From Sphagnum magellanicum (Eukaryota; Streptophyta; Sphagnopsida; Sphagnales; Sphagnaceae): a DNA stretch of 64,000 bases. Shown one piece after another: positions 56,796-63,049 of the stretch; positions within the stretch are counted from its first letter, which is position 1, and each line of letters opens with the position of its first letter. The stretch is taken from positions 9,811,349 to 9,875,348 of the forward strand of contig CM038918.1 in the NCBI GenBank assembly GCA_021904315.1, given 5' to 3'. Position numbers and translations under genes: made by a program. The notes under the pieces are model-generated. The model was given only the letters and a program-made list of their open reading frames with translations. It searched no databases and was not told where the DNA came from.

Positions 56796-57149
56796 GTGGG
56801 GAAAATAGGAATATTTATTCCTCCTAAAGTCCATTTAACTACTTTAAAAACCTTACTTTTGCTACCTTGTCTTTGCCCTCCTTTGCTTCTTTCTTCATCT
56901 TCCTTCATGTTTCCCTCTCTATCTTTTCTTCCTCACATTCCTTCATTCCAAAAGAAAAGGTGTCGTCACAAGGATTTTTACTTCACCACAAAGAGACGAC
57001 GGTTGTTCACTATGGGAAGAAGGAAGGAATTGAAAGCACTTTCAAATGAACACAAAGGTCAAGCTACTTGGGACAAGGTATGCACCCTCCATTTTCCACC
57101 TCCATTTTCCAAGCTTCCACAACTATATGCATTGACACATATGGGTTTT

Positions 57150-58260
57150 TAAGTTTGTTTATTTTTGTCTCTTTTCCATATGCATTGATGCATACACACT
57201 TGAGGTTTTACAAACTTTTTTCTATAGATTTTTTTCTAATTTCCAAACATTTCCTTTCTAGATTTTTCCAACATTTTGGAAGGTCTCAAGCTATGTGGTT
57301 TTCACATTTTCCATATGCATCGATGCATATGCATTTGTAATTTTACAAACTTCTTTTCTACGGATTTTTTTCCATTTTTCAAACATTTTTTCTCTAAACA
57401 TTTCCAAAATTTTAAAAAGTCCTGAGCTATGTGGTTTTGAGGTTTTATGTATGTGTTGGTGCATATGCATTTGAAGTTTTACAAACTTCTTTTCTACGGA
57501 TTTTTTTCCATTTTTCAAACATTTCTTCTCTAAAATTTTCCAAATTTTTGAAAATTCTTGAGCTATGTGGTTTTGAGATTTTATGTTTTCCTTATGCATT
57601 GGCGCATATGCATGAAGTTTTACAAAAAAAATTCTATGGATTTTTTTCCATTTTTCAAACATTTTTTCTCTGAAATTTTCCAAAATTTTGAAAAGTCTTG
57701 AGCGCTATGGTTTTGAAGTTTTATGTTTTACATATGCGTTGGCACATATGCATTTGAATTTTTACAAACTTCTTTTCTGTAGATTTTTTTCATTTTTCAA
57801 ACATTTCTTCTTTGGATTTTTTCCAACATTTTGGAAGGTCTCAAGCTATTTGGTTTTCATGTTTTCCACATGCGTTGGTGCATATGCATTTGAAGTTTTA
57901 CAAACTTCTTTTCTACACATTTTTTTCATTTTCAAACATTTCTTCTTTGGATTTTTCCAACATTTTGGAAGGTCTCAAGCTATGTGGTTTTCAAGTTTTC
58001 CATATGCATTAGTGCATATGCATTTGAAGTTTTATAAACTTCTTTTTTGAGGATTTTTTTCATATTTCAAACATTTCTTCTCTAGATTTTTCCAACATTT
58101 TGGAAGGTCTTGAGCTATGTGGTTTTGAGGTTTTCTATATGCCTTGGCGCATATGGCTTTTGAGCAAGTCACAAACTTCAACGATTTTCAAGTTTTCATG
58201 TTTGTTTTCTAGAATTTTGCTCATTTTTCTATGCTTCCGACCTATGCAATTTTGAAAGTT
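57150..58260. repeat. About 135-base minisatellite in the first intron
   Basis: Each unit carries a word like GAGCTATGTGGTTTT followed by a CATATGCATT..GCATATGCATTT palindrome, TTTTACAAACTTCTTTTCTA and CATTTTTCAAACATTT. Anchor positions are 57,291, 57,427, 57,563, about 57,703, 57,846, 57,980, 58,114 and about 58,244. About eight copies, moderately diverged. Confidence 0.9.
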
Positions 58261-60754
58261 TTCTATATGTGCCAATGCATATGGCTTTTGAGCTTTGCAA
58301 CCTCCAAGTTTCTAATTTATTTCCCCCACTTTTCTAAGTTGTGCACCAAGTTAAGTCATTTGGTTTTTTAACTTTCCAACTTCTTTGTTTGGTCTTTTTC
58401 CACTTTTCAAAGCTTCCTTGGGCTATGTCATTTACATGTTTCTCCACATACATCAACACATATGGCTTTCCAAGTTTCTTTTATTTTATTTATTTTATTT
58501 CCTTTATCTTACACTAGGACCTTTTCAAGTTTTTGAACTTCACGATCTTGTTTTCAAGCTTACACAACCATATTGGTCCCATTTCTTGTGATTCATTGTT
58601 TTCATTTTTTCCCATTATACATAAAAGATTTTTTTTTTTTTTTGTTGGATGATGCTACCACTTTGCATAATTTGACCAAACTGACAACAACTTTAATTGA
58701 TGAAATTGATGCCAACAGTTGGACTATTGATGATTATGAAGAACCAAAGTATTTTCAAACATACCCACCTTCACTTGATGTTAAATAGCCCTTATTCTTG
58801 AAGAAAAACATGATCTAAATATTGTTTTTAGGTCCTTTCTCATTGAAGACAAAATCATGGAAATTCCATTATGCCGCATGATTTCCATGCAAGTTGTAAA
58901 ACCTACACTTATGAATGACATCTTGAAGCTTAGAGGAGACTTCTAGTCAAGCTACCACCTTGGAGCTACAATATTTTGTGTTTCATTTGAAGATATTGAT
59001 GGATGTGTTGTTGATGTCACCTAGGAGAGGACAAATAGTTGGGATGGTCATTGGAAAACAATGATTGAAGAGTTTGAAGAGTTTTTACAATCCAAACCCT
59101 CTTTGCATCACCTCATGGGGAAGATGTTCCATGTATGGGATGGAATCATAGACTTCAAGCTTGGTATCCATACATCAATGAGGTTCATGCAAAGAATAAA
59201 TCAAGGCATGTTCAGGTTACAAGTTGGGTGCTTGATGTAAACAAGAACAATCGTGGTGCTCTTCGATCCATTATGGATGGAGTCAATGTGTGAATACAAT
59301 TGATTGTTCCCTCAATATAATTATTTGTTTTTGACATAGCAACAATCCCTCAAATTTTCATGCTTTTCTTTATGGTCATACAAGGCAAAGTTCAAAGGGT
59401 ACATGTCACATCAAGGTTTGTGCACTTCGTATCCAAAGTCAAAATGGTGGGTCTCACACCTTTGACTGAATGGAAACATGTGTTGAAGAAGGAACAATAT
59501 GATGAATGCATCAAGAAATTGGGAAGACATGGTATAATTTGTCTATTCATGCCATGACAAAAATCTTGTTCAAGGTATAATTTAATCCTTCTATACATTA
59601 CTCCATGGATTCACAATTATCATTGTGCTATGAAATTTCATGCAATTTTTACATGAACAACCTACTCATGAATCGTTTGTTTCCATGCCATTAATGGATA
59701 TGTTATTTGTGGGGCATTGTTTTTGGGTTTATAGCATGAAATTCTTGATGCACAACGCAAGGCAAGAGAAGATTACAAACAAGGTATTGATGGTCCTAGG
59801 ACTCAAGGGGGTCTTCAAGAAGCTATGATGCAAGTTGGGCTCAAAGTAAGAGAACAACATAAAAGCCAATTAGTGAAATTGCTCCTTGTTGTTGATCCTT
59901 CTTTGGGGGAAGACTTCTTTGCCCAATTCAAGGTTTATTAATCACGCGCAAAAGTTGGTAATGAGGAGATGACCTAAGAAAAATTAGTGAATGTCACCAC
60001 AATTAGAGTGGATCCATAAGAAAAAATGGAATGGTTCAAAATTTTGGAATGGGGACCAAGCAATTCGAAACCAAAATTTCTTTCCACCTAGGCCAATAAG
60101 TGAGCCAACATTGGATCCTTGGTTGAATAGGAAGACACTCTGGTGGCAAGTACATACTCCCATGCACTTGCATCTTTTTTTCTTACATGACTTTTCAATA
60201 TGCATGAATGAATGTGTGTTCAATTGTTGACACATGAATGTTTGGTAGCTCCACAAGGTTGCATCGGTTCAATTTGCTCTTTACACCATTCAATGAGGGC
60301 AATTTCCATATTGCTTTGGGAGAAAGACTTGGTGAGATTTTGGGGGATTATATGGACACATGGAAAATGACTCATTTCAATGAGTTTTTTTTTGTGAATT
60401 TGTTTACCTAGTGGGCCATTTCAAGGTAATGATTGGGAACAACAACCCAATGGTGAGAAAGCAACTAGAAGAATACTCTTCAAGTATGAAATTATGAACA
60501 AAATGTTTTCTTTCTCCTTGCTCCCACCTACTCTCTTTTTTCAAACATTTTTACAATTATTCACATTGTGTGTTTTGATTACATGGATCATGGAAATCCA
60601 TTTGTGTCATTTTTTTAGGTACGTGAGGTTTGTGCTCAAACCAGAAAATTGCCTCAACTCTAAATCAAAGTTCCTCATGGCATGGAAGTTTGGTGCACCA
60701 CCAACCATTATGTACACACTTAAAATTGAAGCAAACTAGGGTTGAAAACATCGT

Positions 60755-60777
60755 GGGGGGGGGGGGGGGGGGGGGGG
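60755..60777. repeat. Run of 23 G
   Basis: An uninterrupted G homopolymer inside the broken ParB-methyltransferase gene, just before the MPKGIIPYEE segment. Its true length is likely uncertain in any assembly. Confidence 0.9.
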
Positions 60778-63049
60778 TTGGTATTTGGATATGCCCAAAG
60801 GCATAATCCCATATGAAGAGACATCTCTTCATGAAGAATGTGTTGTTAAACAAGCCATAAGTGATGCTGGCAGTGCTTCAATTGAAATTTCTCCCCATGA
60901 TGATTTGGAGCAAGCAGAACAAATTGCTTCACAAGCAACTTTTGTTATGGCTCAAGCCATTCCTTCATCATTGGTTAGGCCTAAAGGACATAAAAGAAAA
61001 AGACAAAAAAGGAAAAAGGTGGATACAAATGTGGGTGACTATTCTATTGGTGCCCATGGAAGTTCTATGCAAACAAGGGTTCCTATCCAAATGATGGTTC
61101 CAACTACAAGTGTTCCCAACCAAGTGGGTGCCACCCATATGATGCGATACCCTTTGTTTTTGCAATTTTGGGAATTATCAAATGAAGATTGTCCCATGTA
61201 ATCTATGACGTTATTGAGGCTCCCAAGTCCCCACACATGGCCTCAAAGATTTGATGGACTTCTTCAAGAATGTAAGGAAAAAAATAACATAGTTTCAAGG
61301 GAAAATTTTGATTACAATTTCCTTGTACACATTTGTCATATCCTAACACATTTTCTTGTTTCATTTGTTTGCCTATGCAGTTGCCAAGATCATGGTTTAG
61401 TGTTGTGGATGGTGTTTCTATACAATTATTTGTGGACTTGATTATTGTTGATTATCCAATAAGGATGCCAATCGATGGCTGCTTGGATGGCATGCAAATG
61501 CCACCTTGGAATGCATTTGACAAACATTATTTAGAATATGCATTTTCAATGGCCAATGACTTGTTGGATGACAATGGGTGTTTGGCTTTCTTGCAAAGTT
61601 TTGATGATGCATCTACCATGGAATTGTTTTCTTTTACAAGGGTAGTAAGGTTTCTATCCTTGCCAAAAAGTATACATGCATCAACAACATCCCTATGCAC
61701 ACTTAATCAGGAAAGGTATTATATGCTTGCACTTTCTTTGAATTCATTTTTTTGACTACATGTGTCAATAATATGGATGTATACTATGGAATTTCAAGTG
61801 GATTGATGTGGCCTATTTGTGTTTGACTTTGTTTTTTTTGTGCAAATGTCTTCACCAAGCTTGGGCGATCCTTCAAATTTCATGAGTCTAGACGACTAGT
61901 CAACCCACTTGGAAATCCTATTAAGTTGGATGTAATTTACATTCACATTCCAGATGATCATCTACCCGTGAAGCCTACACATAAAGCTTGGAGGGGTGCA
62001 CAAGATCGTAGTCTTGCATTCATGTAAGTGTTATTAGAGACATGTTCACCTCCTTGTTCAAGGATATTGGATTTCACCATTCGCACAAGTTTGTGTTTAA
62101 ATCTTCATGGTGAAAATCCTTTAAGGTGTACCACATGGGATGAAAAAGGTTTAGTCTTTACTACAATTTTTTTTTACCATATGTTTTGATCCCCATAAAA
62201 AATAATGAGTCAAAAGTTATTAAAATTTTCAAAAGGACTATATCTTAGACCATTACAATTTTGGATTCCGTCATTTTCATCCATAAACGTGTCTTTACAT
62301 GGTAAAAAAAGACTGGGTAAAAAAGACAGAAAAGGGTGACATTGTGACAAGATTTTGGTACATTTAAAGAATTTGGACCTTTTAAGTCAATTCAAGTGTC
62401 TTAATAATTTAATGTACATTCTTAACTTTTGGTTGCAAAAACTAAAAAAGTTAAAACATGCACCTTTTTGTGATGTAGGATCAACGTTCATTATTTCATG
62501 TGAATTAGGCTATCATGTGTTTGGTTTGGTAGGGGACAAAATTTTATATGCTACACATTTGTATGCATTGAAACAAAATGTGGGCACTATGGTGCGTTTT
62601 GTGGTTATTCCATCCATGAGCCTACCTCCTTCACACTCATTGGATCCACTTACTCCTAAGGTGGCATGCAAGTTTGGTTTGAACTTCAACAAGCCTTTTT
62701 AGTGCGTACGTCTTGTATTTGCAAAAAGAACCATGTTTTAGGATTTTCATTTCATTGTTGGAATATCCTTCAACATAAATATTGCTAACATATTGATTTC
62801 TTTGTTGATAGCGATTCAACCAATATGGGCTTGTGTGGACCATCTTGGATCTTACCCCCAAGTCCACCTTCCTGTTGTTTTTTTGCCTAAACAAGTGGAG
62901 CAAGAAGCCTTACGTTCCATTATAGAGGTTGCTAGTGAAGATGATGAAGAGTTCTTGGCATCTAGAGATAAAGATTTTAGATTTTGCATGGGTAAGTCCA
63001 TAGAAGCTATTGTTGATGATGAGGAAAAAAGTAGAATTTAATAGAAAGT

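Follow-up and report, generated by a model that had tools for sequence, protein, structure and literature searches.

What does a broken gene that appears to join a ParB-like domain to a DNA methyltransferase, a fusion known from phages and bacteria, represent in the genome of a moss? The question arises from a 64,000-nucleotide stretch of Sphagnum magellanicum (contig CM038918.1, positions 9,811,349 to 9,875,348; hereafter the window). An earlier note, made from the letters alone, described such a gene there and proposed that it had been captured long ago by a mobile element and might be a source of unusual DNA methylation. Our analysis leads us to regard the region, on balance, as probably a dead copy belonging to a plant repeat family that is old, dispersed and high in copy number and has a ParB-methyltransferase-like gene.

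The window contains a broken gene with introns

Between 56.7 and 63.0 kb on the + strand lies a broken gene with introns, in which a ParB-like segment is followed by a basic linker, a motif-IV-like segment and a motif-I-like segment. Its features are as follows, with the evidence for each in brackets.

56688..63041, + strand: decayed repeat-family copy, gene plus 5' flank (blastn to L060, L061, L062 and L064; own-genome DNA search); 56688 is the start of homology to copy L064 on contig C13 and 63041 the last open frame, and neither need be an element end
57012..57077, + strand: first exon MGRRKELKALSNEHKGQATWDK, then GTATGC (homologous exon in L064 only, E 8e-4)
57078..58650, + strand: large first intron, containing a minisatellite at 57172-58163 (136-bp unit, 7.2 copies)
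58651..58784, + strand: coding segment DATTLHNLTK...PPSLDV, 5' of the ParB-like domain (tblastn to L060, L062 and L064)
58785..59291, + strand: ParB/Srx-like domain with an insertion of ~40 aa ahead of the GNHR-like box (GNHR-box profile match to phage ParB domains)
59390..59557, + strand: conserved coding segment RVHVTSRFVHFVSKVKMVGLTPLTEW... (seen by eye in L060, L066 and L068)
59735..59941, + strand: conserved coding segment EILDAQ...VKLLLVVDPSLGEDF (tblastn to L060-L064)
59991..60150, + strand: conserved coding segment IHKKKWNG...PTLDPWLNRKTLWWQ (tblastn to L060-L062 and L064-L068)
60409..60739, + strand: two more conserved coding segments, GPFQGNDWEQQP and RFVLKPENCLNSKSKFLMAWKFGAPP (tblastn of the 60398-60739 frame to L060-L064 and L066); the second part is inverted in L060 by tblastn
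60746..61201, + strand: GGWYLDMPKG segment and basic linker RPKGHKRKRQKRKK (tblastn to L060-L062, L064 and L067); the first part is inverted in L060 by tblastn
61381..61714, + strand: methyltransferase-like N part, with the motif-IV-like VDYPIR and the GCLAF strand (hhalign, family profile against beta-class columns 34-117)
61827..62025, + strand: methyltransferase-like middle part LVNPLGNPIKLDVIY...AWRGAQDRSLAFM, with GTAAGT at 62024
62109..62380, no strand assigned: inserted 272-bp high-copy repeat (at least 29 genome matches at 86-88%, best 40 of 928 candidates scored), its ends partly inverted (20 bp, 85%)
62457..62702, + strand: methyltransferase-like C part, with the motif-I-like FCDVGST ... 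HVFGLVGD (hhalign to beta-class motif I columns 230-264)
62742..62991, + strand: C-terminal coding segment, with GTAAGT at 62992 (tblastn to L060-L062 and L064)

Every string quoted in the earlier note is present, VDYPIRM and GCLAF within 61,381-61,714 and APFCDVGST within 62,457-62,702. Splice-like sites are GTATGC after the first exon, CTATGCAG on the 5' side and GTATT on the 3' side of the motif-IV exon, and GTAAGT at 62,024 and 62,992; an acceptor for the second exon of this copy is not recognisable. From the ParB segment to the C-terminus, the order of segments is kept in L060, L061, L062 and L064 (tblastn) with two exceptions: about 300 bp are inverted in L060, and L061 is missing the upstream portion of the ParB exon.

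The reading frame itself is ruined. The ParB-like segment has in-frame TAG codons at 58,944 and 59,022, and the frame changes near 58785 and again near 59141; IPLCRMI and FHVWDG (59,127) share one frame and NHRLQAW (59,144) lies in another. The window copy is a dead copy, not a working gene.

The two halves probably belong to one gene of a dispersed family

The search for further copies that the earlier note had suggested returned well over 100 loci in the moss's own genome. The ParB piece has at least 151 matches (150 of 344 candidates scored) and a methyltransferase piece of another subfamily at least 149 (150 of 202 scored), and there are 29 matches to the motif-IV exon. Relatives at the DNA level are 71-82% identical among the matches listed. 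Removing by hand five rows that were second pieces of the same locus from the 150 listed leaves at least 145 ParB-like loci, spread over 20 contigs.

We then compared the positions of the two halves. Of the 145 listed ParB-like loci, 50 are followed on their own strand by a methyltransferase-like match at a distance of 1.2-7.3 kb, and no pair within 8 kb is in the wrong order or on the wrong strand; the other 95 have no methyltransferase match in reach among the matches listed. Random placement, with assumed sizes for contigs C18 and C19 (16 and 17 Mb), yields a mean of 0.26 pairs, with none of the 500 trials giving more than 2. The pairing is far above random, and the two halves probably form one joint gene of a dispersed family. 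All family copies read across both halves are broken, with none intact. The number of loci rules out a single captured gene; what survives of the capture proposal is a dispersed family that has probably moved, not one old capture.

Evidence for mobility and for duplication of a host gene

Five copies of one subgroup (L060, L061, L062, L179 and L180; on C3, C4, C16, which has two, and C17) have a common 3' end within 4 bp, and the DNA beyond it differs, which suggests that the family was probably mobile. Neither the window copy nor L064 shows this end, which slightly weakens the case for mobility and strengthens that for a gene family. We considered whether an element might stop abruptly at 62,995 and discarded the idea; the alignment shows that L064 and L060 continue there and that the window copy has a gap. 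We found no terminal inverted repeats (TIR) between the common 3' end and the upstream stretches, and no transposase, recombinase or reverse transcriptase was recognised by eye in the stretches of 4.5-9 kb that were read. A Ty3-like polyprotein adjoins L068.

These loci could instead be host genes, a large family evolving by birth and death through duplication and not self-mobile, with the window copy a pseudogene, a reading that we consider possible but rather unlikely. Retained introns, the lack of any TIR or transposase found and purifying selection between copies would all fit it, as would the long stretch, 5' flank included, that the window copy and L064 share without the 3' end of the other subgroup; the spread over 20 contigs, the five copies that end at one point and then diverge, and the failure to find an intact copy among those read across both halves speak against it. 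The selection, which counts for our preferred reading as well, is seen in dN/dS values of 0.17-0.46 for 19 of the 20 within-subfamily ParB pairs with defined dS (22 pairs in all, 2 with undefined dS), which argues for past purifying selection; the pair with the lowest dS gives 0.98. For the middle part of the methyltransferase, all nine pairs between subfamilies with defined dS fall at 0.18-0.41; methyltransferase values within the window's subfamily scatter from 0.23 to 1.65, a point against our preferred reading. All are approximate, being calculated by the simple NG86 method with the transition bias of decaying copies uncorrected.

Under our preferred reading, that of a dispersed repeat family, the copies would have spread as mobile DNA, and since introns are retained they would have been copied as DNA. 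A further step, which we offer only tentatively, is that the family represents a kind of plant mobile element not described before, formerly abundant in a moss genome, whose signature protein combined a ParB-like domain with a degenerate beta-class methyltransferase.

Profile comparisons modestly support both domain assignments

The Pfam search of translated pieces that had been proposed as a check was negative for single copies. PF02195 matches none of 21 family members at E<=1 and nothing in the whole genome; the ParB part of a real phage fusion, L093, likewise falls under the Pfam cut-off (23.7 bits). N6_N4_Mtase (PF01555) gives no hit for the window pieces or for eight pieces of other copies, and no family of Pfam, PHROG or PDB is hit by either the pieces or the profiles. 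Pfam hits below threshold (among them thymidylate synthase, LAGLIDADG, PAS and kinase) were rejected as isolated and different from copy to copy, and two PDB profile hits, uL3m (E 0.13) and CD200R (E 0.75), were likewise set aside.

Multi-copy profiles proved more informative. With hhalign, the ParB profile of the family matches a broad phage ParB set (33 fusion N-termini plus 9 other ParB) with P 0.0026 for the whole and 0.00039 for the GNHR half, scores reached by 0 of 150 shuffled controls in each case; the match spans 12-30 columns, at hhalign probabilities of 11.5% and 35.5%. Here FHVWDGNHRLQA of the family aligns to the column of MEVLAGNHTLKA, the GNHR/GERR-like box II. It was after a narrow YbdM-type ParB profile had failed to match (P 0.2) that we built the half profile and the broad set. 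Alone, the N half (box I side) gives P 0.68 against the broad set, and the ParB piece, set against the full fusion profile, reaches P 0.044 and 0.016 on 7 columns.

On the methyltransferase side, the profile of the motif-I piece matches the beta class with P 0.0013 (0.39 against the ParB profile; 0 of 150 shuffles) and that of the piece from motif IV onwards with P 0.0012 (0.61 against the ParB profile; 1 of 150 shuffles), each at an hhalign probability of 19%. Against the fusion profile, motif IV gives P 0.064, and 5 of 150 shuffles reach its score; one shuffled profile that scored >130, an evident artefact, is retained in the shuffle counts. The N part falls on template columns 34-117 and the C part on 230-264, so motif IV, the TRD and motif I follow one another as in the beta class. 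The methyltransferase had been called permuted, but beta-class enzymes ordinarily have motif IV ahead of motif I.

These comparisons modestly support, at the profile level, a ParB-like domain adjoining a beta-class methyltransferase-like domain, and the proposed pairing of domains stands to that extent. Could the likeness be chance, the protein being an unrelated plant repeat protein with neither domain? Negative single-copy family searches, profile P-values of only ~0.001, the missing motif IV aromatic and the one ParB yardstick that failed are consistent with this idea. We nevertheless judge it unlikely, as each of three segments aligns with the expected part of the expected family, their order is also the expected one, and shuffled and unrelated profiles served as controls.

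Relation to known fusions and elements

Retroelements with cytosine methyltransferases and DIRS elements with an adenine methyltransferase domain offer one comparison. Like these transposable elements, the moss family has a methyltransferase-like gene in a dispersed repeat; unlike them, its copies keep introns, and no reverse transcriptase or recombinase was seen in them. A bdelloid rotifer enzyme, N4CMT, is an N4-cytosine methyltransferase. Like the moss family, it places a bacterial-type amino-methyltransferase in a eukaryote; it is reported together with a 4mC mark (PMC8885841), whereas the moss family occurs as a multicopy repeat, carries a ParB-like domain and has a degenerate motif IV.

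A further comparison, in architecture, is with phage and bacterial ParB-N6/N4-methyltransferase fusions. In Arthrobacter phage Shambre1 gp1 (L093, 461 aa), as in the moss family, a ParB-like domain is N-terminal to a beta-class amino-methyltransferase, and the boxes GNH.L.A, motif IV and motif I come in the same order. In contrast to these fusions, the moss genes contain introns and are high-copy and decayed in a plant; their ParB part has an insertion of ~40 aa, and BLAST searches with it found no similarity; several extra conserved segments lie between the domains, and the motif IV aromatic is missing. Bce_0392 of Bacillus cereus is a bacterial example (as cited in PMC5512222), and in PMC12704722 such fusions are reported for bacteria, archaea and phages, with eukaryotes appearing among ParB-fold hits.

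The presence of such fusions in phages (PMC12704722, section 7) might suggest that the copies are what is left of a large DNA virus that inserted repeatedly into the plant genome. This is very unlikely: the genes have introns, the ParB-like profile as query found no relative in IMG/VR, and no virus structural gene was recognised by eye in the stretches read. More broadly, the ParB-like part as query found no relatives in IMG/VR, phages or GTDB prokaryote genomes.

We found no prior description of a ParB-methyltransferase plant repeat family in the open-access literature searched. If our reading is true, a high-copy plant family would be a new place for this architecture, a transfer long ago out of a phage or bacterium would be indicated, and the copies would form a datable record of the fate of a DNA-modification protein in a plant genome.

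The motif IV aromatic residue is absent in every copy where it could be placed

In none of 18 copies (13 placed clearly and 5, from other subfamilies, by alignment; L010, L066 and L070 were not placeable and were left out) is the fourth residue of motif IV aromatic (Y, F or W), and all 11 yardstick enzymes have Y there. DNA methylation by the family is doubtful for this reason, and the suggested source of unusual methylation finds no backing in a broken copy. An active DNA methyltransferase gene at the window locus, for which the motif I G-S/A/T-T box kept in the family might speak, can be dismissed: stops, frame changes and the 272-bp insertion break the frame of this copy, and the missing motif IV aromatic also speaks against it.

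What might the intact protein have done? It would have been a multi-exon product with a ParB/Srx-like domain, a long basic-patch linker and an intron-cut beta-class amino-methyltransferase-like domain, and was probably the element's own DNA-handling factor. By analogy with relatives, in which it is an NTP-dependent clamp or nicking domain, the ParB-like part would hold DNA, and the methyltransferase-like part would bind SAM. The protein may have marked or hidden element DNA or, given that no copy in which motif IV was read retains its aromatic, have acted as a non-catalytic reader. On the more tentative reading of a new class of mobile element, a phage-type DNA-protection or partition factor would have become a eukaryotic element's SAM-binding DNA-handling protein, perhaps one that evaded host 5mC silencing. 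Of the 9 alignment rows that cover the G-S/A/T-T box of motif I, 6 retain it, and an acidic residue follows strand 2 in 7 of 11 rows, with V replacing the usual E in the window copy.

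Two halves of one gene family

Across the window's own genome (439 Mb, 31 contigs), the ParB-like and methyltransferase-like halves belong together. At 50 of the 145 listed ParB-like loci, the same strand carries a methyltransferase-like match 1.2-7.3 kb further downstream, at a median distance of 2.8 kb, and no pair within 8 kb at these 145 loci departs from this order and strand. When positions were drawn at random, the mean was 0.26 pairs, and none of 500 trials gave more than 2. For the remaining 95 loci no methyltransferase-like match within reach is listed, perhaps because many of them are fragments or because the capped search misses divergent exons.

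For the copy in the window (G000:C12:9811349-9875348), the earlier note's claim of a broken plus-strand gene was borne out: the motifs it quoted are present in their frames, along with two TAGs and changes of frame. Splice-like sites stand at several exon ends. Among the other genes of the window are ones for zinc fingers like those of STOP2 and for S1 domains of RRP5. The features are as follows, with L064 and other L numbers denoting further copies or pieces in this genome.

30340-31740: long low-complexity proline/serine array, 63-bp tandem unit, several frames open
56680-56790, minus strand: tRNA-like stretch (GGCTTGGTGGTATAGTG...GGTTCAAACCC) common to the window and L064; resembles a tRNA-derived SINE, also in its boxes
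56,688-63,041, plus strand: the decayed gene copy
57172-58163: minisatellite in the first intron, with a 136-bp unit also found in L064
61,381-61,714: motif-IV exon
61,827-62,025: middle methyltransferase-like part
62109-62380: 272-bp high-copy repeat inserted in the copy, where it separates the second methyltransferase-like segment from the third; ends partly inverted, at least 29 genome matches at 86-88%, probably a MITE
62,457-62,702: motif-I part

Copy number and decay

The motif-IV exon has 29 own-genome matches, the ParB-like piece at least 151 (best 150 of 344 candidates scored) and a methyltransferase-like piece of another subfamily at least 149 (best 150 of 202). At the DNA level, with the best 40 candidates scored per list, the window copy has at least about ten relatives at 71-79%, and a single short piece reaches 82%. 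For a stretch from another subfamily, at least 52 other matches at 72-82% are listed; no younger copy is among these own-genome matches listed.

The segments from the ParB-like exon to the C-terminus are collinear in L060, L061, L062 and L064, and the intervening non-coding stretches align too; L060 has a stretch of about 300 bp inverted, and in L061 the ParB exon is missing its 5' portion. Among these four, only L064 matches the first exon, and L060 and L062 carry minisatellites upstream of the ParB exon with units other than the window's. Every copy read over both halves (the window copy, L060-L066, L068, L069 and L071-L073, the tally leaving out L067 and L070, which could not be judged) has at least one stop or frame change, and single exons stay open for up to about 290 codons. 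In L038-L059, many in-frame stops are TAG at sites that encode W in other copies, the change that deamination of methylated cytosines in the opposite strand would produce.

Contig C20 (4.7 Mb) holds 11 of the 145 listed ParB-like loci, or 2.33 per Mb compared to 0.31 per Mb elsewhere. We take this contig to resemble a small sex chromosome, where old repeats would persist. Also on C20, a Ty3-like polyprotein (RT to integrase; L068 190-2164) lies directly upstream of a ParB-like exon, probably as a nested insertion.

Domain identity and catalytic motifs

Single copies have no family match in Pfam, PHROGs or PDB, and profiles of the family have none in PDB. We compared these profiles with four yardsticks: 11 beta-class enzymes, with YhdJ of E. 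coli among them; a narrow, YbdM-type ParB set; a fusion set seeded from Arthrobacter phage Shambre1 gp1 (Pfam N6_N4_Mtase 6.8e-16, ParB_N 5.1e-5), with 43 non-redundant of 48 long open frames from 80 IMG/VR loci plus Shambre1, picked by methyltransferase motifs and not frame by frame for the ParB domain; and a broad ParB set (33 fusion N-termini and 9 other ParB), built after the narrow one gave no match.

The motif-I profile aligned with beta-class motif I (P 0.0013) and not with ParB (P 0.39); column shuffles matched the observed score in 0 of 150 cases against each of two yardsticks. The motif-IV profile is collinear with the beta class from motif IV on (P 0.0012; 1 of 150 shuffles, an artefact), reaches only P 0.064 against the fusion profile (5 of 150) and does not align with ParB (P 0.61). 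The ParB piece matched neither the narrow set (P 0.2) nor methyltransferases (P 0.54); it matched the broad set at the GNHR box (whole P 0.0026, C half P 0.00039, N half P 0.68), with 0 of 150 shuffles in both ParB tests. These comparisons give real, if modest, support for both identities.

Position four of the DPPY motif, an invariant Y in all 11 yardstick enzymes, is aromatic in none of the 18 copies that allowed its placement. In 13 of these, all of the window's kind, the placement is clear; in five of other subfamilies it rests on alignment; and L010, L066 and L070, where the motif could not be placed, are left out. Of the 9 alignment rows that cover the motif I box, 6 retain G-S/A/T-T; the acid after the following strand is present in 7 of 11 rows, with V in the window copy. 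The simplest reading of these residues is a SAM-type site with doubtful catalysis.

ParB-methyltransferase fusions with the domain order of the Sphagnum family are described for phages and prophages in PMC12704722 and PMC5512222. When IMG/VR, phages and GTDB genomes were searched with the ParB-like part, none yielded a relative. On both Pfam score and catalytic motif the family falls outside PF01555, and we therefore file it as a variant of this kind, not a member of the enzyme family. Its protein may bind DNA and SAM in an enzyme-like way.

Selection and mobility

For the ParB-like exon, dS is defined in 20 within-subfamily pairs, and dN/dS is 0.17-0.46 in 19 of them; the lowest-dS pair, L060-L033, gives 0.98. 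The middle methyltransferase-like part gives 0.18-0.41 in 9 of 12 pairs between subfamilies (three undefined), and within the window's subfamily the three methyltransferase-like parts scatter from 0.23 to 1.65. Selection thus acted on the protein during the family's divergence, and copies decayed once they had landed.

No terminal inverted repeat was found between the upstream stretches and the 3' end of L060, L061, L062, L179 and L180, and this 3' end is not seen in the window copy or L064. Because these five share that end to within 4 bp and then run into differing DNA, the subgroup's structure speaks for transposition.
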